Below are positions 29,340 to 43,422 of a DNA stretch of 46,316 nucleotides, one piece after another; the stretch's first letter is position 1; each line of letters opens with the position of its first letter. The notes below the pieces were generated by a model. That model worked only from the letters and a program-made list of their open reading frames with translations. It did no database searches and was not told the DNA's origin. Both the position numbers and the translations under genes were made by a program. Location: assembly GCA_026399025.1 (NCBI GenBank), contig JAPLRU010000005.1:1-46316 (forward strand), given 5' to 3'. The stretch is from Methylobacter sp. GTDB taxonomy: Bacteria > Pseudomonadota > Gammaproteobacteria > Methylococcales > Methylomonadaceae.

Positions 29340-29578
29340 TGGATGAGCTGGCAAAGTTAAGGTGGCAATGTCGGCGGGGGACTAAGGAGCTGGATTTTTT
29401 GTTGAACAGGTATTTGGAAACGGGGTATTTGATTACAGATCAGGGAGAAAGGGATTTGTTTAAGGAGTTGCTGGGACTTGAGGATAATCAATTGATTGGA
29501 ATTTTGATGGGAGATTGGGAAGCAGCGGGACTGGAGGCTCTAGTTGAAAAGATTAGGACGACTGCTCATGTTTTTTGA
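29339..29578 (+). CDS. sdhE: succinate dehydrogenase flavinylation factor
   Basis: 79 residues. The family motif RGTKELD (RGxxE) is at about residues 13-19, in the LRWQCRRGTKELDFLL stretch, followed by the acidic segment LLGLEDNQLIGILMGDW. It binds SdhA and promotes covalent FAD attachment. Directly coupled to sdhB. The cassette-like region begins just after this gene. Confidence 0.95.
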   Translation: MDELAKLRWQCRRGTKELDFLLNRYLETGYLITDQGERDLFKELLGLEDNQLIGILMGDWEAAGLEALVEKIRTTAHVF

Positions 29579-29596
29579 TGATGCTACCTGTATCTA

Positions 29597-29720
29597 TTTT
29601 AGGATGTACTAAATTTATTCAACTGAATGAAACAACAATGATTTTTAATTTTTATAAATTATTAGACAACCTTGTGACGCAATGTTTTGCGTCTATTAGG
29701 ATAGCTAATATTAGTTAGGC
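29597..29720 (+). repeat. structured ~124-bp repeat ending in a GTTAGGC core, copy 1
   Basis: Close relative of 42151-42275. It contains hairpin 1 (ATTTATTC, loop AACT, GAATGAAA at 29613-29632) and hairpin 2 (GACGCAA, loop TGTT, TTGCGTC at 29676-29693), the latter enclosed by ATTAG/CTAAT. It ends in GTTAGGC (29714-29720), identical to the right-hand core of the integron attC sites that follow. Hairpin 1 differs from copy 2 in a way that keeps pairing. It precedes the first cassette gene by 17 bp. It could be a divergent attC, an attI-like entry site, or a mobile repeat that carries a core. Confidence 0.75.
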
Positions 29721-29737
29721 CAACACCAAAGGTAAAC

Positions 29738-30637
29738 ATGCCCCTACCCGAAGAATTACAAGGCTCCAGCTGGACCCGTCAAACTGCGCGAAACATGCTC
29801 CCCTTGCTGGTATGGTGTGCAAAGAATGGCGTTCCCATTACCTACGGCCAACTCGACATAGAGTTGCAACGACGACAACTAGGGCATCACGTCAATGTAG
29901 TTGTATATGGCCATCCCGCAGGCGCCATTGGGGATGCGCTACTTGCAACTGAACAAGAAATCGGCGAGCGAATACCGCCGCTAAATTCACTGGTTATCAA
30001 TGCAAAGACAGGCATTCCTGGCTCTGGATGTGATTACTATCTTAAGCATTACCTAGCCGAAACCGTTTTAGATAAACCAACAGCCGAACAGCGCAAGGCA
30101 ATGGCCCTCGACACGATGGAGGAAGTTTGGCGATATCAAGGCTGGGATGAACTGTTAGAGCGATATGGCATGCGGCCTATTCAGGGCAATATTCCATCAT
30201 TAACCCGTGCGCCTCGTAAGAACAATGCTCCAAGTAAAGGCGGATGGTCAAATGAGCCGGAGAGTGAAGAACACAGACTTCTAAAAGAATGGGTTGCACT
30301 CAACCCAAAGATATTGAAGTCAAAAATTCCCTTCAGAGAGGGGAAACAAGAGTTGCTGTATGCCTCTGCAGACAAAGTCGATGTGATGTTTGAGCACGAC
30401 GAAGGATGCATCGCAGTGGAGGTGAAGTCTATACGTTCGAATAATCAGGACCTTGAAAGAGGAATATATCAATGTGTCAAATATCAGGCACTACTGAGAG
30501 CTGAGCTAAAGGCCCGAGGTCAAATACCAAATGGAACCTCTGTTCTAGTAACGGAAAATGAATTGCCTCAGAATTTAATTGAGTTGGCAGACCTATTTGG
30601 AATCCGTGTCATCGTCGCGGTACGCACGCGGGCCTAA
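29738..30637 (+). CDS. PD-(D/E)XK-fold cassette protein of unknown function
   Basis: 299 residues. The C-terminal half has a nuclease-fold signature: ADKVDVMFEHDEGCIAVEVKSIR (about 220-242), D on one strand then E-x-K, followed by a helix with Q (IYQCVKYQAL). The N-terminal half (about 10-95) could be a winged-helix region (WCAKNGVPITYGQLD). I do not recognise a named family. GTAAAC before the ATG is a weak ribosome binding site. The stop codon is part of GCCTAAC, the usual left-hand core of an attC site. First cassette after sdhE. Confidence 0.75.
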   Translation: MPLPEELQGSSWTRQTARNMLPLLVWCAKNGVPITYGQLDIELQRRQLGHHVNVVVYGHPAGAIGDALLATEQEIGERIPPLNSLVINAKTGIPGSGCDYYLKHYLAETVLDKPTAEQRKAMALDTMEEVWRYQGWDELLERYGMRPIQGNIPSLTRAPRKNNAPSKGGWSNEPESEEHRLLKEWVALNPKILKSKIPFREGKQELLYASADKVDVMFEHDEGCIAVEVKSIRSNNQDLERGIYQCVKYQALLRAELKARGQIPNGTSVLVTENELPQNLIELADLFGIRVIVAVRTRA

Positions 30638-30672
30638 CGAATAAGGTTAGAAGCGAGCCACAATCTGAACCG
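30632..30672 (+). repeat. GCCTAACGAATAAGG repeat, copy 1
   Basis: The sequence from GCCTAAC through CCACAATCTGAACC matches 32819-32871, apart from a 13-nt insertion there. It starts on the last codons of the upstream gene. The 14-mer GCCTAACGAATAAG is also found at 43380-43393, each time just after a cassette-type gene. Confidence 0.8.
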
Positions 30673-30803
30673 GTTGTTGGACAAGCCCGGTGGTAGTCGG
30701 AAGGCCGATTTTATTATAAGAAAATATCTTTTCGGATTTTTTGGGTTGCGGCGAGGAATCTATAGCCGCAATAGCCGGGTAGATACCGTCCATAGCTTGG
30801 CTA

Positions 30804-30893
30804 GCATAACCTGGCGCTCAACCGGAGCGCGGTTATAATCCGGTTTTATTTTTTCAGCTTTCCGGGCCGCGCCCGGTTAGCTCTACGTTAGGC
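30804..30893 (+). other. integron attC recombination site
   Basis: 90 bp. The left end is GCATAAC and the right end GTTAGGC. The arms pair: left GCGCTCAACCGGAGCGCGG against right CCGCGCCCGGTTAGC, leaving the unpaired bases typical of extrahelical positions. The rest forms a variable loop. Cleavage would fall between G30887 and T30888. It lies 20 bp upstream of the glutathione S-transferase gene and marks the boundary between cassettes 1 and 2. Confidence 0.8.
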
Positions 30894-30912
30894 GTTTAAG
30901 GAAAACCGAAAA

Positions 30913-31515
30913 ATGTACAAACTTTACGATTTTTTGCCATCAGGCAATTGCTACAAGATTCGTCTCTTGCTCAATCAACTAGGTATTGAATATGAACGGA
31001 TAAATATTGATATTTTAAATAAAGAATCTCGTACTTCAGAATTTCTTAAAATTAACCCTAATGGTCGCACTCCTGTCTTATATCATGATGGGAGGTATCT
31101 TGCAGAATCCAATGCCATCCTATGGTATTTAGCTTCAAATACTGGCTTTTTGCCTACGGATAATTATGAACAAGCTCAGGTTTTGCAGTGGATGTTCTTT
31201 GAACAATATAGCCATGAACCCAATATCGCAACATCACGCTATTGGGTTTCAATACTAAGGGCTGAAAATGAATATAAAGAACAACTCAAAGCTAAAATGA
31301 AAGTCGGGTATGCCGCTCTTGATGTAATGGAACAGCACTTAAGAAACAATAATTTTTTTGTTGCCAATCAGTACAGTATCGCTGACATTGCTCTGTATGC
31401 TTATACACACGTTGCAGAAGAAGGAAATTTTGACTTGTCCGAATATAGTAGAATCAAAGAATGGTTCAAAAGAATTGAGAACCAGGAAAATTACATCAAC
31501 ATTAAAGCGTACTAA
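30913..31515 (+). CDS. glutathione S-transferase family protein
   Basis: 200 residues. The thioredoxin-fold N-terminal domain has SGNCYKIRLLLNQLGI and the glutathione-binding segments NGRTPVLYHDGRYLAESNAILWYLA (residues ~53-77, cis-Pro and ES). The helical C-terminal domain has the N-capping pattern FFVANQYSIADIALYAYTH. It is AT-richer than the sdh genes and stands alone between two attC sites, so it is read as a gene cassette. Substrate unknown. AAGGA 10 nt before the ATG serves as a ribosome binding site. Confidence 0.92.
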   Translation: MYKLYDFLPSGNCYKIRLLLNQLGIEYERINIDILNKESRTSEFLKINPNGRTPVLYHDGRYLAESNAILWYLASNTGFLPTDNYEQAQVLQWMFFEQYSHEPNIATSRYWVSILRAENEYKEQLKAKMKVGYAALDVMEQHLRNNNFFVANQYSIADIALYAYTHVAEEGNFDLSEYSRIKEWFKRIENQENYINIKAY

Positions 31516-31762
31516 CACTTTGTATCTATCTGAGGCTCTGGACAAATATGGTTACATGCTATTTACGCTATGTCATTGATCCATACAAGCCGGGTAGGGG
31601 GTGCATCGCGCCCCATTTCGGATATCAATCGTACTGGAAATTTTGATTCCAAAAATGGCTTGTCCATTGAGATGTTTAAAATAACCGGGGTATTTTGGTA
31701 TTTGTAAATGGGGCGCGATGCGCCCCCTACATCTACGCCAGCACCTCAATTGAACGTTAGGC
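31510..31762 (+). other. attC site with a hairpin element in its loop
   Basis: The left core TACTAAC (31510-31516) overlaps the GST stop codon; the right core is GTTAGGC (31756-31762). Inner arms CTGAGGCTCTGG and CCAGCACCTCAA pair over about 10 positions. The total of 253 bp is unusually long because a 137-bp inverted-repeat element (31594-31730) occupies the loop; without it the site would be about 116 bp. Confidence 0.6.
31594..31730. repeat. 25-bp inverted repeat element (MITE-like)
   Basis: GTAGGGGGTGCATCGCGCCC.. and its complement ..GGGCGCGATGCGCCCCCTAC form 25-bp arms at 31594-31618 and 31706-31730 that pair throughout with one G-U/mismatch position. They surround 87 bp of non-coding sequence. 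No transposase gene. It sits inside an attC site. Confidence 0.85.
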
Positions 31763-31766
31763 TCTA

Positions 31767-32195
31767 ATGTTCATTAATATGCGGCTAAACTTAATAATTA
31801 TGGTACTTACTGCAACTTTGTCAGGATGTTCAGTACTTGAATACATTTGGCTTGTTCCACGGGCTAGTAGTGAAGTAAGTTTTAACCCAATATTTTCAAA
31901 TACAGAAATACTCGATACATTTGCACAGGTCGCGCTACCAGAATTAAAGTTTTTTAGTCAACCATCGGAAACCTATCGAAATGTAGGTGAAGGTATTATT
32001 GAAATTGGTCATTACCATAGTAGAGCAGGCTTTGTTAAATCAAGTATTGCCGGATTTTCAGCACGCGCTGAAATCGACCGTAAGCAACATACCCTATCAT
32101 TTGTTGTAAAAGGAGCGGAAGCTTATTACCAAGCCCTTCCGGTCGATGAAGTAGTACAAAAAATCACCTATAAATTATCAGAAAAATTAAAATAA
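31767..32195 (+). CDS. putative lipoprotein (cassette gene)
   Basis: 142 residues. The N-terminus is a lipoprotein signal: LNLIIMVLTATLSGCSV, with lipobox L-S-G-C and Cys at about residue 21. Two start codons are possible (31767 and the in-frame ATG 12 bp later). The mature part shows no family I recognise; it has a mixed alpha/beta pattern with VGEGIIEIGHYHSRAGFVKSS. It follows an attC core by 4 bp and is followed by another attC 34 bp later, so it forms a compact single-gene cassette. Confidence 0.8.
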   Translation: MFINMRLNLIIMVLTATLSGCSVLEYIWLVPRASSEVSFNPIFSNTEILDTFAQVALPELKFFSQPSETYRNVGEGIIEIGHYHSRAGFVKSSIAGFSARAEIDRKQHTLSFVVKGAEAYYQALPVDEVVQKITYKLSEKLK

Positions 32196-32229
32196 TTAAT
32201 GCGGGGAGAGACTTGCAATTACTCATCAA

Positions 32230-32346
32230 GCCTAACATGGCGCTCAAAGGGACGTGCCGCCTCATAGGGGGTTTAAAGTTTTGTAATTTATCAAGCTTTG
32301 GGGCTTCGTTTAGCGTCCGTGAGCGGCACGCCCCGTAACGTTAGGT
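32230..32346 (+). other. integron attC recombination site
   Basis: 117 bp. The left core GCCTAAC (32230-32236) and right core GTTAGGT (32340-32346) are complementary over six bases. Inside them GGGACGTGCCGC pairs with GCGGCACGCCCC, 11 of 12 positions. The left arm shares the TGGCGCTCAA word with the attC at 30804. This is the clearest attC-type structure in the window. Confidence 0.85.
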
Positions 32347-32389
32347 TACGCTGGGTATTTTCTTTTATAAATATAAATCAAGGATAATT

Positions 32390-32779
32390 ATGGGAATTTT
32401 ATTAATTGGTGGTGTAGCATGTATGGCTGCACTGATCCTGTCAGCATGGTTAATGACATTTGCTCGTTGGTTTCCAATTGAGGGTGTTGACGAAAAATTT
32501 TTGGTTGATTATAAAACCATGATTAGAGCCCATGTTGATTATGCACTTATGGCACTATTTAATTTGGTTTTTTATGGTGTTGGCATTGAATTACCAATTA
32601 TTGCTTGTTGGTGTGTCGCAATCGGAGGTTTTGCCAATCCAACTGTTTTTGTTATTGCTGCCTTTAATCCAGATTTTTGGAGTAAAACTATATGGAAAGT
32701 TTTTACGGCAATAAGTTTTGTCGTTACAACAATAGGTTTTACATGGATAGGAATAACTTTACTTAAACATGCCTTGTAA
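32390..32779 (+). CDS. small integral membrane protein (cassette gene)
   Basis: 129 residues with four predicted hydrophobic helices (about 1-25, 45-65, 66-90 and 103-127). No motif I can name. AAGGATAAT precedes the ATG. AT-rich compared with chromosomal neighbours, same strand as the other cassettes, preceded by an attC and followed 40 bp later by a GCCTAAC core. Likely the last member of this array. Confidence 0.75.
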   Translation: MGILLIGGVACMAALILSAWLMTFARWFPIEGVDEKFLVDYKTMIRAHVDYALMALFNLVFYGVGIELPIIACWCVAIGGFANPTVFVIAAFNPDFWSKTIWKVFTAISFVVTTIGFTWIGITLLKHAL

Positions 32780-32818
32780 AACAAACATCACTAATTACAC
32801 AGTCTTTATTGGCTCGTA

Positions 32819-32871
32819 GCCTAACGAATAAGGTTAGATTGTGCGAGCGATAGCGAGCCACAATCTGTACC
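32819..32871 (+). repeat. GCCTAACGAATAAGG repeat, copy 2
   Basis: It starts with GCCTAAC 40 bp after the membrane protein gene and matches 30632-30672. It contains an AGATTGTG / CACAATCT stem around a GCGAGCGATAGCGAG stretch. No right-hand GTTRRRY core follows, so it may be the left half of a truncated attC and the end of the array. Confidence 0.75.
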
Positions 32872-32967
32872 ATGTCAGCTTGGTTAGTTTATCGTGAGTA
32901 GCGGTACAAGATATTAAATCAGCATTAGCAAACGTTAAAGCCATTGCCGAATTTGAAACATTGAAAT

Positions 32968-32992
32968 GTCGGGCATAAACCTCATGCCCGAC
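32968..32992. repeat. hairpin with GTCGGGCAT arms
   Basis: A perfect 9-bp stem (GTCGGGCAT / ATGCCCGAC, 7-nt loop) lies downstream of the minus-strand gene at 33022-33231. The same GTCGGGCA arm forms the hairpin at 43398-43422, so it is a dispersed palindromic unit. No U-tract directly after it. Confidence 0.7.
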
Positions 32993-33021
32993 CGAATTGC
33001 GTTTTTTCAGGAAAACTTTAA

Positions 33022-33231
33022 TCAGAATGTTTGATACGCAGGTGTGCAATGAGAACAACCGCCGGCCTGCTTTCTTAATAATTCAGCCGCTTTTTTCACA
33101 GCACTTTTAGTATTGCTGATTGATCCCAAATACTGCAATGTTTCTTTGGAAGGAAGCAAAGAACATTCAGAGATATGAACCACATGCTCCCCATTGCCCT
33201 GAGCGTTTATTTCAACGTAAAACTCCGCCAT
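33022..33231 (-). CDS. small conserved hypothetical protein with C-terminal Cys/His motif
   Basis: 69 residues: MAEFYVEINAQGNGEHVVHI, then a helix (NTKSAVKKAAELLRKQ) and GGCSHCTPAYQTF. The C-x-x-C next to His suggests a metal or redox site, together with an earlier Cys in SECSLLPS. GAGG 8 nt upstream of the ATG is a good ribosome binding site. I do not know a function. It lies between the cassette array and the metallopeptidase gene, on the opposite strand from the cassettes. Confidence 0.7.
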   Translation of the reverse strand: MAEFYVEINAQGNGEHVVHISECSLLPSKETLQYLGSISNTKSAVKKAAELLRKQAGGCSHCTPAYQTF

Positions 33232-33514
33232 AGTAATTACCTCGCTGTTAGAAGATTAGTTTAAAAACCAGCTCATCTGTAATACGATTCATTTTCTGTC
33301 GGCCATCTAACATTGAATGCTAACGATGTTGTGATAACGACAGAAACAACGCTGAATTCATGTTACTTTTGAGCTTATTTAATTGCGCAGCAAGACTTAT
33401 ACCAATCGGTCATCTGAATGGAGCGTAGATCGCTCCGGTATTCCGTACCGCTTCATACGGACTACACAATCTCAAACTTATTTGATAGTACGGTAAATAG
33501 CATCGCGCATACAC

Positions 33515-34180
33515 CTACAAGCCCATCATCAAACTACTGCCGTGTTTTTTCAACCACTGCCTTCGTTGTTGATAATCCGGTAAATGCTCGCCGACCAAGG
33601 CCCAAAAATGCGCGGAATGGTTCCGGATTTTGATGTGGCAAAGCTCATGGACCACGACGTATTCCAAGATTTCAGGCGGAGCTATGATTAACAGCCAATT
33701 GATATTGATGTCGTTATGAATACCGCAACTGCCCCAGCGGCTTTTTTGGGTTTTGATTTTAATGGTCTGCGGAAATAACTGCTTTCTTTCCGCATGTTGT
33801 TTCACCCAATGTTCCACCTGGACTTTCGATTGTTTTTTCATCCAGCGGATTAAGGCGTCTTTGATAGCGGCGCTATGCTCTTCAATCATCAAAGCCTCAG
33901 GCACATGAGCAATAAATTGCTCGGCAAATTCGATTTTTATTCTTTTTAATTTTGACGCTGTTACCGCCAATTTATACGACGCGCCCCGGTAAGGCACTTC
34001 AGCGCCATGACCGTAAACAGCGGGCGCCAAGCTTTTATGATGCAGACTGTGGGCTTCAATTTTAGCCAAGGTTTGGATGATCCACTGCTGCTTGGCCTGA
34101 ACAAACTGATGAATTCTATGCTCTGCGGCCTTGGGCGGCGCGACGACTTCGACTTTACCGAGGGTGACGATAATTCGCAT
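33515..34180 (-). CDS. YgjP-like M48-type metallopeptidase domain protein (DUF45, COG1451)
   Basis: 221 residues from the first ATG. The zinc site is VVHELCHIKIRNHSAHFW (HExxH followed by a downstream His), preceded by KTQKSRWGSC, both standard for the family. Family members begin before this ATG: the codons upstream in the same frame read FSYHIRRSQRATQ, which matches the normal N-terminus, yet no ATG, GTG or TTG exists back to the in-frame TAA. Either a rare start (for example ATT at about 34240) is used or the first codons were lost by frameshift. The protein is probably longer than annotated. Confidence 0.85.
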   Translation of the reverse strand: MRIIVTLGKVEVVAPPKAAEHRIHQFVQAKQQWIIQTLAKIEAHSLHHKSLAPAVYGHGAEVPYRGASYKLAVTASKLKRIKIEFAEQFIAHVPEALMIEEHSAAIKDALIRWMKKQSKVQVEHWVKQHAERKQLFPQTIKIKTQKSRWGSCGIHNDININWLLIIAPPEILEYVVVHELCHIKIRNHSAHFWALVGEHLPDYQQRRQWLKKHGSSLMMGL

Positions 34181-34293
34181 CTGCGTGGCCCGCTGGCTGC
34201 GCCGAATATGGTAAGAAAAAGGTAGATTAAAAATGACGGTGATCTCGCTGGAGGTTTTGGAACATGCTTTGCCTGGGATGGCGCGCCCTACTG

Positions 34294-34692
34294 CTAATTA
34301 TCCCGGTTGATCATATGCGTCGCCAATTGCTGCAGCACCTGGCTTAGGTTTTCCCTGAAATCCGCATCCGGTAAGGTCATTTCATTGATGGCTTTATTCA
34401 TGCACAACATCCATTGATCTCTTGCCGCTTCGTTTATCGCAAACGGGAAATGCCGCTGCCTTAACATCGGATGTCCGTATTCTTCAATAAATAAATTAGG
34501 CCCCCCCATCCAGCCGGACAAAAACTTGAACAACTTGGCGCTTGCGCCCGATAAATCCGCTGCATGCATAGCCCTTATTTCGGCGGCTTCGGGCAAGGTA
34601 TCCATATAAAAATAAAACCGCTCAACCAGGTTCAGTAAGGCCGCTTCCGCCCCGATCAATTCATAAGGGGTTGTTTCTGTATTTTCTGTCAT
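34294..34692 (-). CDS. group 2 truncated haemoglobin
   Basis: 132 residues. The 2-on-2 globin features are LVERFYFYMDTLPEAAEIRAMH (B/C/E helices, with Tyr and Phe of the distal side), the F-helix proximal His in EYGHPMLRQRHFPF, and the G-helix Trp in RDQWMLCMNKAI. Group 2 proteins bind O2 and NO and are linked to nitrosative or oxidative stress. It is a single gene; the metallopeptidase follows with about 110 bp between. Confidence 0.93.
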   Translation of the reverse strand: MTENTETTPYELIGAEAALLNLVERFYFYMDTLPEAAEIRAMHAADLSGASAKLFKFLSGWMGGPNLFIEEYGHPMLRQRHFPFAINEAARDQWMLCMNKAINEMTLPDADFRENLSQVLQQLATHMINRDN

Positions 34693-34811
34693 AATTCGGG
34701 GCTGAGAGTTTTAATAATCCGCTATTCTACTAAATATTTTTACCCAGGCCGCCAAACTCTTGTAAGATTTAGCGGTCTATTTTTATCAACCTTTTTAAGG
34801 AGTTCAATCCA

Positions 34812-35480
34812 ATGAGATCAAATACCGCTATTTCAAACCAGGAAGCCGGGGTTCTGGCGACCAATAAAGTCCTAAGAAACACCTATTTGTTGTTGTCGAT
34901 GACGCTGTTTTTCAGCGCGATGACCGCAGGCTTGGCCATGGTGATGGAACTGCCACACTTTAGTCCTATCGTTACCTTGGTCGGTTATTTCGGCTTGTTG
35001 TTCTTGACCACCAAATTCAGCAACAGCGCTATGGGTCTGGTTTTCGTTTTTGCCCTGACCGGTTTTATGGGGCTGACTTTAGGTCCTGTTTTAACGATGT
35101 ATATTAAGGCTTTCAGCAACGGCCATGAGTTGATTATGATGGCCCTAGGCGGCACCGGCGTTATCTTCCTGGGTCTTTCGGGCTATGCGTTAACTACCCG
35201 CAAAGATTTCAGCTTTATGGGCGGCTTTTTGATGGTCGGCGTACTGGTTGCATTTTTGGCTGGGCTGGGCGCTATGTTCTTTGCAATACCGGCTTTATCG
35301 CTGGCGGTATCGGCGATGTTTATTCTGCTGATGTCCGGCATGATCTTGTTTCAAACCAGTGAGATCATTCACGGCGGCGAAACCAACTACATCTTGGCGA
35401 CTGTTTCTTTATACGTATCGATTTTCAACCTGTTTATGAGCCTGCTGCAATTGTTAGGCGTATTCAGCGGCCGGGAATAA
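34812..35480 (+). CDS. Bax inhibitor-1/YccA family membrane protein
   Basis: 222 residues with seven predicted transmembrane helices. It begins with a short cytoplasmic part (NTAISNQEAGVLATNKVLRNTYLLLSMTL) typical of YccA-like proteins, and the conserved end has FQTSEIIHGGETNYILATVSLYVSIFNLF. E. coli YccA modulates FtsH; related proteins conduct calcium or protons. Ribosome binding site TAAGGAG 8 nt before the ATG. It converges with rarA. Confidence 0.95.
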   Translation: MRSNTAISNQEAGVLATNKVLRNTYLLLSMTLFFSAMTAGLAMVMELPHFSPIVTLVGYFGLLFLTTKFSNSAMGLVFVFALTGFMGLTLGPVLTMYIKAFSNGHELIMMALGGTGVIFLGLSGYALTTRKDFSFMGGFLMVGVLVAFLAGLGAMFFAIPALSLAVSAMFILLMSGMILFQTSEIIHGGETNYILATVSLYVSIFNLFMSLLQLLGVFSGRE

Positions 35481-35503
35481 ACATTAATTTAACGATTTAA
35501 CAT

Positions 35504-35538
35504 ATTCACCACGAAGAGTCTTCGTCTTCGTGGTGAAT
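35504..35538. terminator. perfect hairpin between convergent genes, CACCACGAAG family
   Basis: A 14-bp perfect stem (ATTCACCACGAAGA / TCTTCGTGGTGAAT) with a 7-nt loop sits exactly between the 3' ends of the Bax-inhibitor-like gene and rarA. There is no U-tract on either strand. It may limit convergent transcription. Its arm is shared with the repeats at 1699 and 46294. Confidence 0.55.
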
Positions 35539-36851
35539 CAACTCCCGTCCAGCCTATTTTTATCCAGCTCCTTCAAGTGCTTTAATTTTTCCTTGATCTT
35601 GATTTCCAAACCGCGCTCTACCGGCTGGTAATAGTGCCTGCCCGCCAACGCGTCGGGAAAATAATTCTCTCCGGCGGCGTAAGCTTCCGGTTCGTTATGG
35701 GCATAACGGTATTCTTTACCGTAATCCAATGATTTCATCAGCTTGGTCGGCGCATTTCTTAAATGCACCGGTACGCCTAAACTGCCGCTTTGTCTGGCAT
35801 CTTGCATAGCCGCGTTATAAGCCATGTAAACCGCATTACTCTTCGGCGCGCAGGCCAGATAAACGACGGCTTGCGCGAGCGCCAACTCGCCTTCGGGGCT
35901 GCCTAAGCGCTCTTGGGCTTCCCACGCGTTAATGCAAATCTGCAAGGCTCTCGGATCGGCATTGCCGATGTCTTCGGAAGCCATCCTGACAATGCGCCGG
36001 GCCAGATAGGACAAATCGCACCCGCCATCCATCATCCGGCATAGCCAATACAGCGAAGCGTCGGGCGAACTGCCACGCACGGACTTATGCAAGGCCGAAA
36101 TCTGGTTATAAAATTCTTCACCTTGGTTATCGAAACGCCGTACTCCGCCGGACAGCACTTCGCGGGCAATCGCTTCGTTAATCGCCCGCCCGCCTTTGGC
36201 GGCGGCAAGTTCTACCGCAATTTCCAGCAAATTAAGCAATTTGCGGGCGTCGCCGTCAGCGGCTTGGGCGAACTGCTGTTTTATGTCATCGGCCATCTCG
36301 ATAGTTAATTCGCCCAAGCCACGCACTTTGTCGGTCAGGGCTTTATCGATGACCGCCAACAAATCATCGGCCGTTAACGCGTTCAGCACATAAACCCGCG
36401 CTCGCGACAATAACGCATTATTCAGTGCAAAAGACGGGTTTTCGGTGGTCGCGCCGACAAAATAAACCGTGCCGTCTTCGACATGCGGCAGGAAAGCATC
36501 TTGTTGCGATTTGTTAAAACGATGCACTTCATCGACGAATAAAATGGTGCGCCGATGCCGTTCCAGTTGAATTTTTTTAGCTTCGCTTACCGCGGCTCTG
36601 ATTTCCTTAACGCCGGATAATACCGCCGAAATCGGCATGAACTCGGCATCGGAATGCTGGGCAATAATGCGCGCCAAGGTGGTTTTGCCGGTGCCCGGCG
36701 GGCCCCAGAAAATCATCGAGTGCAAGTGTCCCGAGACTATCGCTTCATACAGCGGCTTACCGGGTTTCAGGATATGTTGCTGGCCGACGTAATCGGCTAA
36801 TTGATTTGGCCGCATCCTGTCGGCCAGAGGTTTGGTTAAGTCATCAAACAT
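35538..36851 (-). CDS. rarA: replication-associated recombination protein A
   Basis: 437 residues, typical. AAA+ ATPase with Walker A GPPGTGKTTLARI (about 52-64), Walker B LFVDEVHRFNKSQQDAFLP, sensor GATTENPSF, and the C-terminal region with DASLYWLCRMMDGG and NAVYMAYNAA. It acts at stalled replication forks. Downstream of lolA on the same strand, 63 bp apart; this order is common in gammaproteobacteria. Confidence 0.96.
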   Translation of the reverse strand: MFDDLTKPLADRMRPNQLADYVGQQHILKPGKPLYEAIVSGHLHSMIFWGPPGTGKTTLARIIAQHSDAEFMPISAVLSGVKEIRAAVSEAKKIQLERHRRTILFVDEVHRFNKSQQDAFLPHVEDGTVYFVGATTENPSFALNNALLSRARVYVLNALTADDLLAVIDKALTDKVRGLGELTIEMADDIKQQFAQAADGDARKLLNLLEIAVELAAAKGGRAINEAIAREVLSGGVRRFDNQGEEFYNQISALHKSVRGSSPDASLYWLCRMMDGGCDLSYLARRIVRMASEDIGNADPRALQICINAWEAQERLGSPEGELALAQAVVYLACAPKSNAVYMAYNAAMQDARQSGSLGVPVHLRNAPTKLMKSLDYGKEYRYAHNEPEAYAAGENYFPDALAGRHYYQPVERGLEIKIKEKLKHLKELDKNRLDGS

Positions 36852-36914
36852 AATAAAAGCGACGAAAGGCTAAAGGCGCAAGGCTAAGGACGGACAACTT
36901 GCACCTTTTTATCC

Positions 36915-37541
36915 TCAATCGGAAAAAACATCGACACCTTTCGGCGCTTTAAACTCGAATAAGGTCGGTTTTAACGGCGGATTTAAAACCACATTGGAAA
37001 AATAAATGCGCGTGAGTTGACCGAAATTATCGCTTAACTCCATGCCGCCCAACGAATCGTTATTCAAACCGATCAGCACGTATTTAAAACTGCTTTCCTG
37101 ACTTTTAGGCAATAATTTGATCCACATCAACTCGCCGTCGACGCCTTGTTGTTCCATAGTGAAATTGTCATCCAGCGATATTTCGCCGCTTAGCAACAAG
37201 GCCGGTGTCGAGCCCACCGACTCATCCAGCTTTTTGACGGTCACCTGTTCCAAATCGGTATCGTAAAACCAGACTTTTCCGGAGGTGGAAACAATCTGTT
37301 GCTGAAACGGCTTTAAATAATCCCAACGAAACTTCCCCGGCCGTTGCAGATAAAAAACGCCGTAACTGGTTTGGGTAGGATTGCCCGCCTCGTTAATCAA
37401 CACCTGCTTAAAATCGGCCGTCAGCGATTTGGTATTTTTTAAAAATGCTTTTAACTGCCTGACCGGTTGATCTTCCGCATAGCCCGGTATATTAAACAGC
37501 AGTATGCCGATCAGACCGGCGAAAATTGTAATTTTGCTCAT
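36915..37541 (-). CDS. lolA: outer-membrane lipoprotein carrier protein
   Basis: 208 residues. Signal peptide MSKITIFAGLIGILLFNIPGYA (cleavage near 22). The mature protein shows the LolA pattern LTADFKQ..., YLQRPGKFRWDYLKPFQQQIVSTSGKVWFYDTDLEQVTV; R and the hydrophobic beta-barrel lining receive the lipoprotein acyl chains. It shuttles lipoproteins through the periplasm to LolB. Upstream of rarA, as usual. Confidence 0.96.
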   Translation of the reverse strand: MSKITIFAGLIGILLFNIPGYAEDQPVRQLKAFLKNTKSLTADFKQVLINEAGNPTQTSYGVFYLQRPGKFRWDYLKPFQQQIVSTSGKVWFYDTDLEQVTVKKLDESVGSTPALLLSGEISLDDNFTMEQQGVDGELMWIKLLPKSQESSFKYVLIGLNNDSLGGMELSDNFGQLTRIYFSNVVLNPPLKPTLFEFKAPKGVDVFSD

Positions 37542-37575
37542 AAAGCTCCTCTTCTAAAGCAGATTGAGTTAGATT

Positions 37576-37959
37576 TTAAAGACCTGAGTTAGATTCCGCT
37601 AATGGATCGATCAACTCCAATCCGGCAATCCATTGAAAATCGCAGGTGTTATGAGTCACCAACGGTAATTGATGAAGCAATGCCGTAGCCGCAATAATAG
37701 CATCGCCCAAACTCATACTTCGTTGCTGACGAAGTTGAATCGCCCATTCAATAACCGATTCATTAATGGCGAATCGTGTCGGCGTCGCCAGAAAATCCGT
37801 TACCAACCCTTTTTCCTGAGCACTGATGCGGTGATAGCCCAGTACCTCAATGCGAGTAATTTCCGAGATGGCTAATGCATGTTTCGACAACCAAGCCCAT
37901 AGCTCAGGGTAATCGGGTTTGGTTGAATAAATCACGATATTACTGTCCAGTAAAATCAT
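37576..37959 (-). CDS. VapC-type PIN-domain toxin
   Basis: 127 residues. The four acidic PIN residues are present: Asp5 in LLDSNIVIY, Glu in EITRIEVLGY (about 38), Asp in SLGDAIIAATA (about 86) and Asp in THNTCDF (about 106). The family cleaves tRNA or rRNA. Its ATG overlaps the stop of the upstream small gene by 4 bp, the usual toxin-antitoxin coupling. Confidence 0.92.
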   Translation of the reverse strand: MILLDSNIVIYSTKPDYPELWAWLSKHALAISEITRIEVLGYHRISAQEKGLVTDFLATPTRFAINESVIEWAIQLRQQRSMSLGDAIIAATALLHQLPLVTHNTCDFQWIAGLELIDPLAESNSGL

Positions 37960-38222
37960 GATTTATTGTCTTCCCGCCCGGCTAATAAGCGGTCTTTACG
38001 TTGCTCTTTTTGCCAAGCTACAGGATCGCCAAACTTATCGGCAAAGCCGGTTTCCGCCAATTTTTTCGCTAATTCCACAAAGCGTTTACCGTTAGGCTCG
38101 GGAGCTACCTCATCGGCAGCATCGGGACAAACCACTACAACACGGGTTCGCCCCAAGTTCGGATTCGCGCCCACCCATTCGATACGTCCTTGATCGTAAA
38201 TCGCCTCATAACTTTTTAACAT
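37956..38222 (-). CDS. antitoxin of the VapC module
   Basis: 88 residues from the ATG at 38222 (MLKSYEAIYDQGRIEW), which has AGGAG 8 nt upstream; two earlier starts are in frame. The N-terminus resembles short beta-strand antitoxin-type sequences ('YEAIYE.GRI.W') and the acidic/basic C-terminal half (ETGFADKFGDPVAWQKEQRKDR) would wrap the toxin. Antitoxin role inferred from the 4-bp overlap with vapC and size; no classical helix-turn-helix is obvious. Confidence 0.8.
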   Translation of the reverse strand: MLKSYEAIYDQGRIEWVGANPNLGRTRVVVVCPDAADEVAPEPNGKRFVELAKKLAETGFADKFGDPVAWQKEQRKDRLLAGREDNKS

Positions 38223-38297
38223 CGTCATCACTCCTAAAATAATATCGGCTAGGCGCAGTAGCGCGCTTAAGATCAAAAACTACAGTTACCGATGCGC

Positions 38298-40649
38298 TTA
38301 ATTATTCGGTAACAACTCATCAATCAACGTTTCCACGCGATTAACAGGCGAGTCCATACACGGCGAAGCTTCATTCGGCGCCGAACCGGCAACAAAAGGA
38401 TACGGTTTCGCGCCTGCACAGTTTTCGTTCGCCAACAAGCCGTTAGCCGGATCGATCCAAGCCATCTTAATATTGTCAGGCTGAATCAATGTCACCGGCT
38501 GGGTTGAAATCTGCTTCATTAATGACGTCCAAACCTGCAAAGCGCCGGTCGCCCCGGTTAATCCGGCCGGTTTGTTATCGTCGCGGCCTATCCAGACCAC
38601 CGACAAATAATCACCGGTGTAACCGGCAAACCAGCTGTCTTTGGCATCGTTAGTGGTGCCGGTTTTACCGACCAAACCGTAATTCCAGGGAAAGGACGAA
38701 TACGCCGAATGCCCGGTGCCTTCATGCATCACTTCCTGCAACATGGTATTGACGATATAAGTCACTGACGGATCGATCACTTGCCTGACCGTAAACGGAT
38801 AGCTTTGTAAGCGCCCGCCGTCCGCAGCAACCACCGCTCTAATCGCTTTTAACGGCGTGGAAAAACCGTCGCCGGCGAAGGTCTGGTAAATCTGGGTGAC
38901 TTCCATCGGCGTTAATTGCGCGGCCCCGAGTAAAAACGACGGGAACAAATCAACCGGCCGGGTAATGCCCATGCTCCTTAAAGTTTTAGCGATTCTGGCG
39001 ACGCCGATATCCATCCCGATTCGAACCGTAGCCAGATTATAAGAATGCGCGAGTGCGGTATGAAAACCGACCGTGCCGTGCTCGACGTGGTCGTAATTTT
39101 TAGGGCTCCAGTCATTGCCGCCCGCGCCCTTCACAAAAATAGCCGTGTCGCTGACCGGCGTGGTAATGGTGTATTTGTTCGGATACTCCAGCGCGGTCAA
39201 ATACACGACCGGCTTGATTAAAGAACCAATCGGCCTGACCGCATCCAGCGCACGATTAAATCCGGTACTGCCGACCTCGCGACCGCTCATTAACGCCGCT
39301 ATTTCGCCGCCGTCTCTGCGGGTCACAACCGCGGCTGCCTCAAGGTCGTTAGCTTTAGGTAGCTTTTCCAGTTGATCCAGTTTTTTAGACAGCGTCTCTT
39401 CCAGCGCATCCTGAACCCGCGTGTCCAGAGTGGTGAAGATTTTCAAGCCTTGAGAGGTTAAATCTTCCTCTTTGTAATCCTGTTTTAACTGGCGTTTGAC
39501 CAGATCGAGAAAACCCGGATAGCGATTGGTCGAGCGATGGGTGTTGGCAATCACATTTAACGGCTTGGCTCTTGCCGCAGCCGCTTGCTGCTTAGTGATA
39601 TAGCCTTCCGCTTCCATCTCTTCCAGCACCAGATTGCGGCGTTGCAGCGAGCGGTCGGCATAACGCCGCGGATCGTATTCCGACGGCCCGCGAACCAAAG
39701 CAATCAATGAAGCGATATGCTCCAACGGCAAGTCCTTTAACGAACTGCCGAAATAAAACTCGCTGGCTAAACCGAAACCATGCACCGCGCTGGCGCCGTC
39801 CTGGCCCAAATAAATTTCATTCAGATACGCTTCCAGAATTTCGTCCTTGCTGTAGCGATATTCCAAAATCAGCGCCATAAAAGCTTCTTTGACCTTGCGC
39901 GACAAACTGCGTTCGGAGGTCAAATAAAAGTTTTTAACCAACTGCTGGGTAATTGTACTGCCGCCTTGCACCATATGGCCGGCCAGCACGTTCATCCACA
40001 TCGCCCTGGCGATACCTTTAAACGAAATACCGATATGCTGGTAAAAATCGCGGTCTTCCGAAGCCAGCAAGCCTTTAATCAGCATCTCCGGCGCTTCTTC
40101 CAGCTTAATTAAAATCCGATCTTCTTTGATCGTGGGATATAAACTGCCGATTTGCACCGGGTCCAGGCGCACAATAGCCAAGTCTTTGGTTTGCGTCGCA
40201 TCGACGATATTGGTGATGCCCGAAGCGTTAAAATTGACCCGCATCACGCTGCTCGGTTGGTGTTGATCCCAGAACGTAAAATCCCTGGTTTTGACGCTGA
40301 CTTGCGAACCGTTTTTAAAATAAGTGCCTTCGGAAGACAAATGCACATCCAGCCGGTAATGCAGCGCCTGCAATAAATCTTCAAACTTTGCGGCATTTAA
40401 ATTATATCCGGCGTAAAGCTCTACCGGACTGGCATAAACCCGCGCCGGAATCGACCAGCGTTTACCTTCGAATTGCGTGCGAACGTTGTAATCCAGGTAA
40501 CCCAGATAACTGATTAGCACAAACCCGAAACCGACCATGGAAACCACGACCAAGTTTCTAAACCAATGTGAAGATGGGGACTTGGGTTGGGGGGCTGGTT
40601 TGTTATCACCGTACCGGCCGGAGCCGCGTTTTTTTGTTTTTTCTGCCAT
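38298..40649 (-). CDS. mrcB: penicillin-binding protein 1B
   Basis: 783 residues, bifunctional. A short cytoplasmic tail and transmembrane helix (about 30-52) are followed by a UB2H-like region, then the GT51 glycosyltransferase (EDRDFYQHIGISFKGIARA, VQGGSTITQQLVKNFYL) and the transpeptidase with the catalytic Ser in RPIGSLIKPVVYLTALE (S-x-x-K), SYN motif in AHSYNLATVRIG and KTGTTNDAKDSWFAGY. Polymerises and cross-links peptidoglycan in the periplasm, normally activated by LpoB. Single gene. Confidence 0.97.
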   Translation of the reverse strand: MAEKTKKRGSGRYGDNKPAPQPKSPSSHWFRNLVVVSMVGFGFVLISYLGYLDYNVRTQFEGKRWSIPARVYASPVELYAGYNLNAAKFEDLLQALHYRLDVHLSSEGTYFKNGSQVSVKTRDFTFWDQHQPSSVMRVNFNASGITNIVDATQTKDLAIVRLDPVQIGSLYPTIKEDRILIKLEEAPEMLIKGLLASEDRDFYQHIGISFKGIARAMWMNVLAGHMVQGGSTITQQLVKNFYLTSERSLSRKVKEAFMALILEYRYSKDEILEAYLNEIYLGQDGASAVHGFGLASEFYFGSSLKDLPLEHIASLIALVRGPSEYDPRRYADRSLQRRNLVLEEMEAEGYITKQQAAAARAKPLNVIANTHRSTNRYPGFLDLVKRQLKQDYKEEDLTSQGLKIFTTLDTRVQDALEETLSKKLDQLEKLPKANDLEAAAVVTRRDGGEIAALMSGREVGSTGFNRALDAVRPIGSLIKPVVYLTALEYPNKYTITTPVSDTAIFVKGAGGNDWSPKNYDHVEHGTVGFHTALAHSYNLATVRIGMDIGVARIAKTLRSMGITRPVDLFPSFLLGAAQLTPMEVTQIYQTFAGDGFSTPLKAIRAVVAADGGRLQSYPFTVRQVIDPSVTYIVNTMLQEVMHEGTGHSAYSSFPWNYGLVGKTGTTNDAKDSWFAGYTGDYLSVVWIGRDDNKPAGLTGATGALQVWTSLMKQISTQPVTLIQPDNIKMAWIDPANGLLANENCAGAKPYPFVAGSAPNEASPCMDSPVNRVETLIDELLPNN

Positions 40650-41056
40650 AACCTCTTACAACATGATTTTATTAAGGTTAACTATTATACATAGGAGGAC
40701 TGTCCGAATCAGCAAGCATCTGTTATGCATGGCGGATCGCCGGCTCGAATTCATTTTACGACCGTGTTAGCTTTGCAAAAAACAGCAGGTTGCATGGCAG
40801 TTTTGACTGTAGAATTTGCCCAAATGCACATTAGCTGCAAGATCAGGACTCATAAAAATTTAATTTATGAGATCAAGGCTATGAATACAGCGGAAAAAAT
40901 TTATCAGGGAGTAAACAACACCGACTTTATAGCCTCCTAACCGGACGAGTTAGTTATATTGCATTTTCAACGTCCGAAACAGTCCGAAACAGTAATGATA
41001 TTGTAAAATCAAGAGAACGGCCTCCTACCACTCGAACCCTCTGCAAGGAAAAACCC
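40650..41056. other. intergenic region between mrcB and the toxin-antitoxin pair
   Basis: About 400 bp without a gene I can support. The only structure seen is a short tandem repeat of GTCCGAAACA (about 40970-40991). Confidence 0.4.
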
Positions 41057-41284
41057 ATGATTGCAACCCTATCGCTCAACGATGAAAAAACGAAAGAATT
41101 ACTAACCGAAGTCATGATTGATTTAATTAGAACCAACCGCGGCGTTTTACATGAAATCATACTGGAAGCATTAGAAGAAGTCGGCTTGGCTAACGCCATT
41201 ATCGATGGACGGCATAACGAATTTGTTGCGGAAGATGAAATTTTTTCCATTCTTAATGGAGAAGATAGTGAAGACAAAATTTGA
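41057..41284 (+). CDS. putative antitoxin
   Basis: 75 residues, rich in Glu: TKELLTEVMIDLIRTNRGVLHEIILEALEEVGL, then a short tail. Size, acidic character and the 17-bp overlap with a RelE-like gene point to an antitoxin. AAGGA lies before the ATG. I see no clear DNA-binding motif; related small proteins are often annotated only as hypothetical. Confidence 0.75.
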   Translation: MIATLSLNDEKTKELLTEVMIDLIRTNRGVLHEIILEALEEVGLANAIIDGRHNEFVAEDEIFSILNGEDSEDKI

Positions 41285-41534
41285 AGCAAGATTTGCTAAA
41301 GATTTACGCGCAGTCCGGAATCAAAAGCTGTTAAACAAAATCAAAGAAATCGTGGATGAATGCAAATCAGCAAGCAGTTTATCCGAACTTAATCAGCTAA
41401 AGAAAATGCAAAGCTACGATAGTTTTTATCGTATTCGTTTAGGTGAATATCGAATAGGCATTGAAATAGTAGACGATGAAATTATTTTCACCCGATTTTT
41501 GCATCGTAAAGATATTTATAAGTATTTTCCGTAA
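41268..41534 (+). CDS. RelE/ParE-family toxin
   Basis: 88 residues from a GTG at 41268, with GGAG 6 nt upstream; an ATG at 41256 is the alternative. The family signature is SFYRIRLGEYRIGIEI followed by FTRFLHRKDIYKYFP, with the basic residues used by RelE-type ribosome-dependent nucleases. The N-terminus KTKFEARFAKDLRAV is also typical. Overlaps the antitoxin gene. It sits at the left edge of the second cassette-like zone. Confidence 0.9.
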   Translation: MKTKFEARFAKDLRAVRNQKLLNKIKEIVDECKSASSLSELNQLKKMQSYDSFYRIRLGEYRIGIEIVDDEIIFTRFLHRKDIYKYFP

Positions 41535-41566
41535 AACAACTAAGGCACATTAAGTTGAGGCGCTAA

Positions 41567-41821
41567 ATGATGGATACCTTAAAAGCTGCCGGAGTTCCTC
41601 TTGTGCAAGCCGAAGCCGTGGCGCTGTCCGAAGTTCTAGAGGTCAATCTCAAGAACTTGGTCGCTAAAGAAGATTTACTATCGGTTAAAAACGAGCTTCA
41701 CCGAGATATAGAAGACGTGCGTCGCGATATGCGCGAACTGGAACAGCGCCTTATCATCAAATTAGGCGCACTTATAGCGTTAGCCATTGGCATAGTTGCC
41801 GCCCTGGTCAAGCTGCTTTGA
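41567..41821 (+). CDS. small coiled-coil membrane protein (DUF1640-like)
   Basis: 84 residues: MMDTLKAAGVPLVQAEAVAL, a charged coiled coil (KEDLLSVKNELHRDIEDVRRDMRELEQRL) and a C-terminal transmembrane helix (LGALIALAIGIVAALVKLL). This matches the short DUF1640/CCDC90-like proteins widespread in proteobacteria, though the N-terminal repeats are fewer than usual. Function unknown. An eroded attC site follows 5 bp after the stop, so it may be a cassette gene. Confidence 0.75.
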   Translation: MMDTLKAAGVPLVQAEAVALSEVLEVNLKNLVAKEDLLSVKNELHRDIEDVRRDMRELEQRLIIKLGALIALAIGIVAALVKLL

Positions 41822-41826
41822 TGATT

Positions 41827-41913
41827 GCCTAATCCGATGCCCAACCGGAGCGCGGTATCCTGGCGCTTGTTAATATTTATTCTCCGCACTCCGCCCGCTT
41901 AGCTTTGCGCCTC
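41827..41913 (+). other. degenerate attC site
   Basis: 87 bp. The left arm (GCCTAAT...CCCAACCGGAGCGCGG) aligns without gaps over 29 positions to the left arm of the attC at 30804, with AACCGGAGCGCGG identical. The right arm keeps GCCCGCTTAGC but the GTTAGGC core has become GCGCCTC, so the site should not recombine. It is the only sign that this region once held an attC-bounded cassette. Confidence 0.6.
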
Positions 41914-42150
41914 AAATTTCATTTTTTCACGCTATCAATAACTGACGTCCATCCATCATCGGCTCCGTAGCCTCAATCATCAGTATTCTATGGCAATTGT
42001 TCCGTATTTGAAGAGCGTTGCCGACTATTGAACATCCAGGAGGCTGATTGCGGATGAAAGATTTGCCGTATCTAGCGTTTGAGTTTATTATCCTTTTCCG
42101 TTGTAGGTACTTGTACTTATTCGCGCTTTTATTTGACGCGACCTGAGTTT
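41914..42150. other. non-coding stretch between attC remnant and repeat copy 2
   Basis: No gene, RNA or clear repeat seen. Confidence 0.4.
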
Positions 42151-42275
42151 AATTTAGGACGCACTAAATTCATGCAACAGCATGAATTAACAATGAATTT
42201 TAATTTTTATAAGGCATTAGACAACTTTATGACGCAATATTTTGCGTCTATTAGGATGGCTAATATTAGTTAGGC
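42151..42275 (+). repeat. structured ~124-bp repeat ending in a GTTAGGC core, copy 2
   Basis: Close relative of 29597-29720. Hairpin 1 is a perfect 9-bp stem (AATTCATGC, loop AACA, GCATGAATT at 42167-42188). Hairpin 2 is GACGCAA, loop TATT, TTGCGTC at 42231-42248, bracketed by ATTAG (42216-42220) and CTAAT (42260-42264). It ends with GTTAGGC at 42269-42275. It precedes the unknown gene at 42308 by 32 bp. Confidence 0.75.
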
Positions 42276-42307: not shown

Positions 42308-43375
42308 GTGGCAAAAAGAGATCCAGACAAATCTGCAAGAAACAGAATAATCAGTCGTATGAAAACGGAGTTAAGAAACTTGCTTCCTGAGGTTCTCAAT
42401 GATATCGGTTTGACTAATGAGGCATCTTTGAACGCAAAGATTGGAAGTAAGAATGACGAGTTCTTCGATCTAAAAAATGAGGTTGTTAATACACCCGAAG
42501 AGTTTATAAATAAGTGGCTCAAAGGGCTGAAAGCTCGAATAAACTCGTCTCATTCGCCAAACCATAAATGGATTATGGATATGGCGAAGAAGCATAAGTC
42601 CTTTAAAAAGTATTTAATGCTTTTCCTTGAAAGGTCTTATTTGAATCATTTTGAGGAACTGTCGAAGAATCGCCCAAACCCATCTCAATCTGAGCTGTGG
42701 ATTGGGCAAACCAACGCCAATTACGGCCTTCTCGTTACCTCTAGGTTCCAAAATGGAAAATGGGAAAATGATAAGAGCGAAATACGAGCGTTTAAGCAAG
42801 GTTACTGGACAATTGGTCATGTGATGGAGACTGGGTTAGTAATCCCTGAGAAAAATAAAGTTTTCAAGTTCGCTGATGTAGAACAATACCTTCTATTTTT
42901 TACCGATACTCTAGTCAGAAATTCTGGGTCTAAATATGAATATGAGCTGGCAGAGTATTACGCAGATTTTGTGCGGGCTTCGGGTAAGCCGTTGGATGTA
43001 CCTCTTTTAATTCCTGAGTTTCGATACTTGGGATTAGAAAAAAATCATCAGTATCGTCTAGATTTTTTAATTATAAATCCCTACACCCTTAGCAAGGTTG
43101 GCTTTGAGTTGTCTCCTTGGTCAACGCATGGGTACTTGAGTAAAACTAAAGGACTAACTCAAAAAGAAATAAATCAAATGGCTCTTGATAACTTCGAAAA
43201 AGAGATGAAAAAACATAGAAGTTATTTTAGAAAGCATGAGATTGTTACCCTTATCTTTACCGATGAACAATTAAAAGATTGCAAGAAGTTATTTGACGAG
43301 GAAATGGCGATCCACTTAGATCCGGAAAAACCACCGACACAACTCTCGTTCGAAATCATGGAGGAGTTTGAATGA
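42308..43375 (+). CDS. protein of unknown function, possibly nuclease-like
   Basis: 355 residues from a GTG with TAAGGA about 9 nt upstream. No family I recognise. It has a basic N-terminus (KRDPDKSARNRIISRMKTELRN), then a WIGQTNANYGLLVTSRF segment, and a C-terminal region PEFRYLGLEKNHQYRLDFLIINP, then VGFELSPWSTHG. The E...RLD...FEL-x-S spacing recalls PD-(D/E)XK-type nucleases, but the final Lys is absent, so this is only a suggestion. It is AT-rich, preceded by structured repeat copy 2 and followed 4 bp after its stop by a GCCTAAC core, which fits a gene cassette. Confidence 0.7.
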   Translation: MAKRDPDKSARNRIISRMKTELRNLLPEVLNDIGLTNEASLNAKIGSKNDEFFDLKNEVVNTPEEFINKWLKGLKARINSSHSPNHKWIMDMAKKHKSFKKYLMLFLERSYLNHFEELSKNRPNPSQSELWIGQTNANYGLLVTSRFQNGKWENDKSEIRAFKQGYWTIGHVMETGLVIPEKNKVFKFADVEQYLLFFTDTLVRNSGSKYEYELAEYYADFVRASGKPLDVPLLIPEFRYLGLEKNHQYRLDFLIINPYTLSKVGFELSPWSTHGYLSKTKGLTQKEINQMALDNFEKEMKKHRSYFRKHEIVTLIFTDEQLKDCKKLFDEEMAIHLDPEKPPTQLSFEIMEEFE

Positions 43376-43379
43376 TGAT

Positions 43380-43422
43380 GCCTAACGAATAAGCCGGGTC
43401 GGGCAATGCTTTTTTGCCCGAC
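43380..43422 (+). repeat. GCCTAACGAATAAG core plus GTCGGGCAA hairpin
   Basis: It begins with the same 14-mer found after the genes at 29738 and 32390. It is followed directly by a perfect hairpin (GTCGGGCAA, 7-nt loop, TTGCCCGAC at 43398-43422) that shares its arm with 32968-32992. No GTTRRRY core follows; probably the left part of a broken attC. Confidence 0.65.

Follow-up and report, generated by a model that had tools for sequence, protein, structure and literature searches.

attI sites without adjacent integrase genes, repeated in a Methylobacter genome and its relatives, as likely landing pads for integron cassettes

What is a repeat doing in front of unrelated genes at two places in one bacterial contig? 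A 46,316-nucleotide (nt) stretch of Methylobacter sp. DNA (positions 1 to 46,316 of contig JAPLRU010000005.1, assembly GCA_026399025.1; hereafter the window) forms part of contig C69 in the draft genome G000 (5.2 Mb, 138 contigs). An initial annotation, made from the letters of the sequence, described a repeat pair of 124 and 125 nt in it, with genes starting at 29738 behind copy 1 and at 42308 behind copy 2, and proposed either a new type of cassette entry site or a leader. The pair exists and is longer than described: positions 29572-29720 and 42127-42275 align without gaps over 149 nt at 83% identity, GTTAGGC terminates both, and both gene starts appear in the list of open reading frames (ORFs). 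The usual description of an integron has one integrase, one attI and one array. We find that the repeat is not an RNA leader but an integron attI site that lacks its integrase gene, and that each copy is very probably a landing pad of about 125 nt for cassettes, which an integron integrase (IntI) would have inserted in trans. The features at issue are the following.

29572-29720, plus strand: attI copy 1 without integrase gene (direct repeat D1); attI proper at about 29597-29720; directly 3' of sdhB-sdhE.
29704-29720, plus strand: crossover region of copy 1; GCTAAT is the inverted L-type box, GTTAGGC at 29714-29720 the R box.
42047-42275, plus strand: attI copy 2 without integrase gene, full form; left segment at about 42047-42150, attI at about 42151-42275, core GTTAGGC at 42269-42275.

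Relative to its orthologues, copy 1 is missing about 62 nt of its left part; the flank upstream of it is 80-90% identical to those in G002, G005 and G021. Copy 2 shares about 229 nt (range 216-235), from about 42047 onwards, with several copies elsewhere, and is matched by the attI profile at E 3.3e-32. The window genome holds seven near-complete copies by DNA search and one fragment, on contig C4, by profile search; two further profile matches at E ~0.01 were left out of this count.

The identity of the repeat rests on other genomes. Homologous sequence adjoins intact, divergent intI genes in G031 and G022. In G031, an ORF of 326 amino acids (aa) begins 6 nt behind attI; in G022 the contig ends 134 nt behind attI, so that a cassette is not visible there. 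Among the matches listed, 22 copies have intI within 1 kb, and in 13 of these the distance to the start of the intI match is exactly 41 nt. Because homologous sequence adjoins intI, and often does so at this one distance, we identify the repeat as the attI region.

The right edge of conservation coincides with the crossover point at which integron cassettes join, after the first G of the core GTTRRRY. In an alignment of 34 copies (A1), chosen for sufficient length and not for junction sequence, information content is 1.6-2.0 bits over ATTAGTT and then 1.36, 0.97, 0.80 and 0.37 bits in the next four columns. A separate junction analysis kept 48 of 62 sites and dropped the 14 without AGTT; its 2.0 bits at AGTT reflect that selection and were not used, and 0.06 bits are left seven positions behind the junction G. 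(An earlier copy alignment had omitted six short copies.) The box layout and crossover point of attI1 are described in passages of PMC12901181, and by analogy with attI1 we would expect copy 1 to be cut between G29714 and T29715, with the boxes assigned as above. The idea of a cassette entry site is thus borne out by attI beside intI and cassette-like genes behind it. Its newness is partly right: the site itself is attI-like, and what is unusual is that it recurs at fixed places in the chromosome with no intI.

The other reading, a structured RNA leader or riboswitch ahead of accessory genes, drew on folding. Both strands of both copies do fold, as DNA, better than shuffles (z -3.3 to -4.7), and the compensatory change reported in hairpin 1 is present in the two window copies; across the 34 copies of A1, however, hairpin 1 is paired in only 64.7% of cells. 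Hairpin 2 is retained as claimed (paired in 94.1% of A1 cells), without a two-sided change. The proposal that folding is conserved was not supported: in these 34 copies, two-sided pair changes in both hairpins number 3 against a shuffle mean of 2.6, a value reached by 252 of 500 shuffles, and no convincing covariation was seen. Paired cells in both hairpins make up 78.4% versus 76.9% in shuffles (reached by 7 of 500). An Rfam search to E 1 returned no match inside the element, which moreover ends at the G^TT point. The lacking covariation, together with the identity with the attI region beside intI, leads us to reject the leader, to which we give next to no weight. Hairpin 2 reads as a conserved palindromic sequence for which a protein-binding site would fit as well as a fold. 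Two other palindromes (TTTAG/CTAAA and TTAG/CTAA) are retained at 91% and 95%, and two of their pairs show a two-sided change; the conserved palindromes are likely to be binding sites, as predicted from sequence, for the integrase or a regulator.

How common are such sites, and how often does an integrase gene accompany them? By DNA search, 20 of 61 genomes, G000 included, carry the repeat, far above chance. The profile search found the site in 88 of 237 genomes of the family and 20 of its 29 genera, with at least 14 matches in the top genome (14 candidates were scored per genome, so per-genome counts are lower bounds). At a stricter threshold, 87 of 311 genomes of the order were positive, one of them outside the family. 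Among the matches listed for the family, intI lay within 1 kb of 22 of 150 copies; in genomes of at most six contigs (n=17), it did so at 3 of 32 copies. This count used the 150 attI matches listed, out of a larger number, and selected intI matches, mainly from genomes with listed attI matches; intI matches on other contigs were partly omitted, which leaves adjacency unaffected.

In the window itself, no intI was found within 1.5 kb upstream of either copy, so that neither qualifies as a complete integron, and no intI above the model cut-off was found in the draft genome. The sole integrase-model match in G000 at E 1e-40 scores 150 bits against a cut-off of 265. This fragment first appeared to be the cognate integrase, a view overturned by comparison of types: it is 79-80% identical to another intI type and 57-63% identical to the cognate one, and is a relic of that other type. 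Among the copies examined in the window's genus, an intact intI stands beside the site only in G022, and broken ones in G010 and G004. The genus also has other integrase types, with different upstream sequences: in a second type (L031, L032, L033), which relatives of the genus have as well, the spacer upstream of intI contains GGTGTATTT and ACACC repeats, and in a third (L042, L046) the spacer is different again.

Have cassettes entered at these sites? Integron recombination takes place between double-stranded attI and attC in its folded bottom-strand form. A circular cassette that has entered attI contributes, from its attC, the bases after the first G; at the cassette's other end the attC begins with their complement. 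An initial attC search that allowed loose R boxes produced 44 matches downstream of the sites (83 kb) and 9 in the upstream flanks (48 kb) and was too noisy for cassette counts; we therefore searched for the complement of each junction. After removal of intI-adjacent sites, 45 remained, 27 with a non-standard junction and 18 with GTTAGGC (L015, L017 and L066 were kept despite a broken or very short intI start). The exact reverse complement occurred within 1600 nt at 15 of the 27 non-standard sites. When heptamers were shuffled among sites, the mean was 3.1 and the maximum 11, and none of 5000 trials reached 15. A variant that included intI-adjacent sites and reached 6 kb gave 16 of 32 versus 6.2 expected. 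In the 1600-nt search, the complement was present at 10 of the 18 sites with GTTAGGC. Genes also begin close behind the junctions: at 36 of 42 sites an ORF of 80 aa or more on the same strand has its start within 50 nt, versus 7 of 32 in a reverse-strand control. These are strong signs, read from sequence, that cassettes have been exchanged at attI sites without integrase genes.

A second line of evidence comes from orthologous sites. Four loci have orthologous left flanks, 80-92% identical over 1.0-1.3 kb: locus B (six genomes), sdhE (four), locus C (three) and locus D (two). A further site, G000:C54, first clustered with locus C; only the last 131 nt of its flank is shared, which leaves locus C with three genomes. 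Behind the junction, sequences within a locus are unrelated except for pieces of 69, 82 and 101 nt and one stretch of 529 nt, some downstream stretches being shortened by contig ends. The three short pieces fit attC sites, as expected; the 529-nt stretch, which two locus B genomes share at 2472 and 759 nt, is probably the right flank beyond arrays of different length. First cargo genes vary by site: an unassigned 299-aa protein, a family-less 355-aa protein, isochorismatase-like, TENA/haem-oxygenase-like, a methyltransferase, and HSDR_N-like (G006). The right end of attI is damaged in G021 (sdhE) and in one locus D genome. Behind sdhE, G022 retains a piece of the site, and several other genomes have an apparent decayed remnant, as judged by eye. 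The gene behind the copy 1 array (33515-34180) lies on another contig in the listed relatives, or about 0.4 Mb away in G019, so the sdhE right flank is not comparable between relatives. The largest nearby upstream ORF is co-directional at 41 of 61 sites, intI-adjacent ones included; this came from a crude ORF finder, and we draw no conclusion from it.

In the mechanism we propose, an IntI encoded elsewhere in the genome, formerly present or transferred in would insert cassettes in trans by attI x attC recombination. The pad of about 125 nt, to which a left segment of about 100 nt is usually added in the window's genus, would supply the attI. With lower confidence, the conserved palindromes and TTAGG/CTAA motifs could be integrase-binding or promoter parts, and the pad may help to express the first cassette. 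A weak promoter-like match (9 of 12 positions) lies at 42063-42091 in the left segment of copy 2. A lenient scan of left segments, made without a shuffle control, found a match of at least 8 of 12 in 18 of 27 copies, often TTGCNN plus TATTAT.

Several observations weigh against the landing-pad explanation. No complement was found within 1600 nt at 12 of the 27 non-standard and 8 of the 18 GTTAGGC sites, some contigs being short, and at least two of the 15 non-standard matches, at L055 (15 nt) and L051 (336 nt), look accidental. A crude test of attC arm pairing was passed by 6 of the 15 non-standard and 7 of the 10 standard complement matches; a textbook attC is not present at every site, and the one behind copy 2 is unconvincing (6 arm pairs). 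Orthologous sites were counted separately, so the counts are not independent. The cognate integrase was not found in G000, whose sites may be idle today; many genomes are drafts, and intI may lie on another contig. On the side of expression, a scan of copy 1 for sigma-70-like promoters gave no match, and around copy 2 three matches were found versus 1.4 by chance, of which the only one on the plus strand lies in the left segment. The support for insertion comes from sequence comparison.

In a rival history the sites are pure relics: intI was deleted from complete integrons, the cassettes had been inserted in cis beforehand, and nothing happened in trans. In genus g11 (L113-L119; genomes G189 and G192, each a single contig) loss of intI from complete integrons is likely, since 7 of 8 integrase-less copies examined retain part of the intI start, ending at codon 51-146; these copies form a natural series of intI truncations. 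In the window's genus, G004 retains intI codons 1-54 and G010 a broken intI, and passages of PMC9024848 propose that clusters of attC sites lacking an integron integrase (CALINs) are degraded integrons. Two observations fit this history poorly. First, 11 of 12 representative copies from the window's genus, at different loci, share a left segment that extends to between -212 and -235, and anchored alignment against shuffles detected no intI similarity in it (median z of 0.25, versus 0.23 in the control). Frame translations read by eye had suggested that this segment is a degraded intI start, an idea we abandoned when z exceeded 2 in only 1 of 25. Second, orthologous sites hold different genes in species in which no cognate intI was seen beside them, which means either that insertion continued after the loci arose or that intI was lost repeatedly at the same spots. 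We judge pure relics to be a real contender, although the chances lean somewhat the other way.

The shared left edge raises the question of how the sites multiplied. The unit of about 220 nt could be an independent small element, mobile or duplicating, whose right part is attI and which was spread by a transposase, by IntI acting on a left-end site, or by segment duplication. At G000:C54 (L052) and G006:C99a (L056), the left segment is preceded by the final 131 and 75 nt, respectively, of the locus C gene, and the remaining flank is unrelated; a piece of the neighbouring gene therefore moved together with the site. Because these tails were found at two other loci, we raised our estimate for a mobile unit slightly. 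A 114-nt tail of the same gene is also present, at 96% identity, on G000:C4, roughly 1 kb ahead of the attI fragment. Of 21 genomes compared at locus B, 6 have the unit directly behind a stop codon; in the remaining 15 (one readable for 319 nt only) it was not detected, a pattern that would suit a mobile element; the right flank without the unit varies from genome to genome, however, and gain and loss are therefore indistinguishable there. The sdhE representative, by contrast, matches other loci over just 149 nt, and terminal inverted repeats were not noticed, no dedicated search for target duplications having been made. On balance an independently mobile unit seems to us rather doubtful, a shade more so than pure relics; the common left edge and the two gene tails nevertheless suggest, from sequence, that sites in the window's genus spread as a unit. 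Second copies inside arrays (G005:C73, G006:C99) have no left segment. Inner copies at L058 near 11046 and L056 near 6999 start about 132-137 nt before the junction, and the G005 copy at L058 near 2715 seems to include a short part of the sdhE end.

If the landing-pad reading is extended to the whole family, the picture would be one of a distributed integron: many attI pads, some of them spread as 220-nt units, at conserved chromosomal places, served in trans by an integrase that is gained and lost over time, with capture at as many as a dozen loci, every one in an expression context of its own. We offer this extension tentatively and would not yet wager on it. Should attI sites without integrase prove frequent, stable and still in use, cassette capture would not be bound to one locus, and short arrays counted as CALINs, or missed, may have attI heads that nobody looks for. 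Two questions become testable: whether one integrase serves several attI sites in trans in nature, and whether sites are kept after loss of the enzyme.

How do these sites compare with known systems? Like attI of a complete integron (the attI1 paradigm), they have a GTTRRRY right end, an inverted CTAA-type L box, upstream repeated motifs and cassette-like genes behind; unlike it, the sites described here have no adjacent intI, occur several per genome and occupy fixed chromosomal places. With CALINs they share attC-bearing genes without intI scattered over the chromosome, but each array here is headed by a recognisable attI, and the window arrays comprise four genes and one gene. A single-attC array falls below the default of IntegronFinder 2.0, which is two attC (PMC9024848, in the passages available), and passages of PMC9668308 state that exogenous IntI can excise or capture CALIN cassettes in trans. 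Genomic IntI targets (attG) are likewise chromosomal cassette entry points away from intI; they diverge strongly from classical att sites according to passages of PMC12901181, whereas the sites here are full attI sequences. A shortened attI that replaces attC at the 3' end of a cassette in a mobile integron also lies off its normal place, as do the inner copies of G005:C73 and G006:C99, but here long attI copies head arrays at conserved chromosomal loci. The Xanthomonas chromosomal integron, as described in passages of PMC12444791, is ancestral and has undergone repeated lineage-specific inactivation of intI; its platform lies downstream of ilvD, and those passages do not mention many attI copies. 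Integrons are reported in Methylococcus in passages of PMC8527097. In the literature covered (the listed titles and abstract openings on integrase-less or multiple attI sites and on integrons of methanotrophs, with subscription papers and preprints mostly outside), such an arrangement was not described.

Behind the two window copies, the arrays comprise the following features, in which structure models were built from single sequences and scored by the predicted local distance difference test (pLDDT).

29738-30637, plus strand: first cassette gene, 299 aa, no database family; mean pLDDT 39.
30632-30638, plus strand: R''-type box GCCTAAC, where the first cassette gene ends; exactly complementary to the junction GTTAGGC.
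30804-30893, plus strand: attC-like site between cassette 1 and the glutathione S-transferase cassette; 23 arm pairs, DNA fold z -3.0.
30913-31515, plus strand: second cassette gene, glutathione S-transferase family (Pfam GST_N/GST_C).
31756-31762, plus strand: R'-type box GTTAGGC in front of the third cassette gene, assigned from sequence.
31767-32195, plus strand: third cassette gene, 142 aa, no family found; lipoprotein-like N-terminus by eye.
32230-32351, plus strand: attC-like site between cassettes 3 and 4; 21 arm pairs, DNA fold z -2.3.
32390-32779, plus strand: fourth cassette gene, 129 aa, no family found; hydrophobic by eye; GCCTAACGAATAAG follows at 32819-32832.
42308-43375, plus strand: single cassette gene behind copy 2, 355 aa, no family found; mean pLDDT 44.
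43380-43386, plus strand: R''-type box GCCTAAC, complement of the copy 2 junction.

The copy 1 array thus contains two clear attC-like sites and further half sites, and copy 2 is followed by one weak site. Pieces similar to the site at 30804-30893 (59-93 nt) occur in L005, L015, L066 and L067, and pieces similar to that at 32230-32351 in L017, L051 and L056. The 299-aa protein has an EVK motif in its C-terminal half, which we read as PD-(D/E)XK nuclease-like. A nuclease identity for the two first genes was not upheld: neither has a family or a solved relative, and both single-sequence models are too poor.

Three window cassettes end in GCCTAACGAATAAG (30632, 32819 and 43380), which also occurs exactly on two other G000 contigs; it may mark a common attC end or the end of an array. 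Between the glutathione S-transferase and 142-aa genes, at 31597-31726, lies an inverted-repeat element with GGGGCGCGATGCGCCCC-type arms, which matched a microRNA family below threshold; G011 (L151) has a similar element behind sdhE. Copy 2 is preceded by a small ParE-like gene and then a short ORF; at 41057-41534 a 75-aa ORF overlaps the ParE-type toxin gene, probably as a toxin-antitoxin pair. An interspersed repeat of about 120-140 nt at about 1640-1790 of L052 is abundant in the genus, with 52 matches in G021 and 51 in G019; these counts include a few matches to another part of the query, in which the repeat occupies positions 390-540. Finally, an exact 41-nt piece of attI is present on two contigs (L110, L112) of a metagenome-assembled genome labelled Glaciimonas, which points to a mislabelled bin or to transfer.

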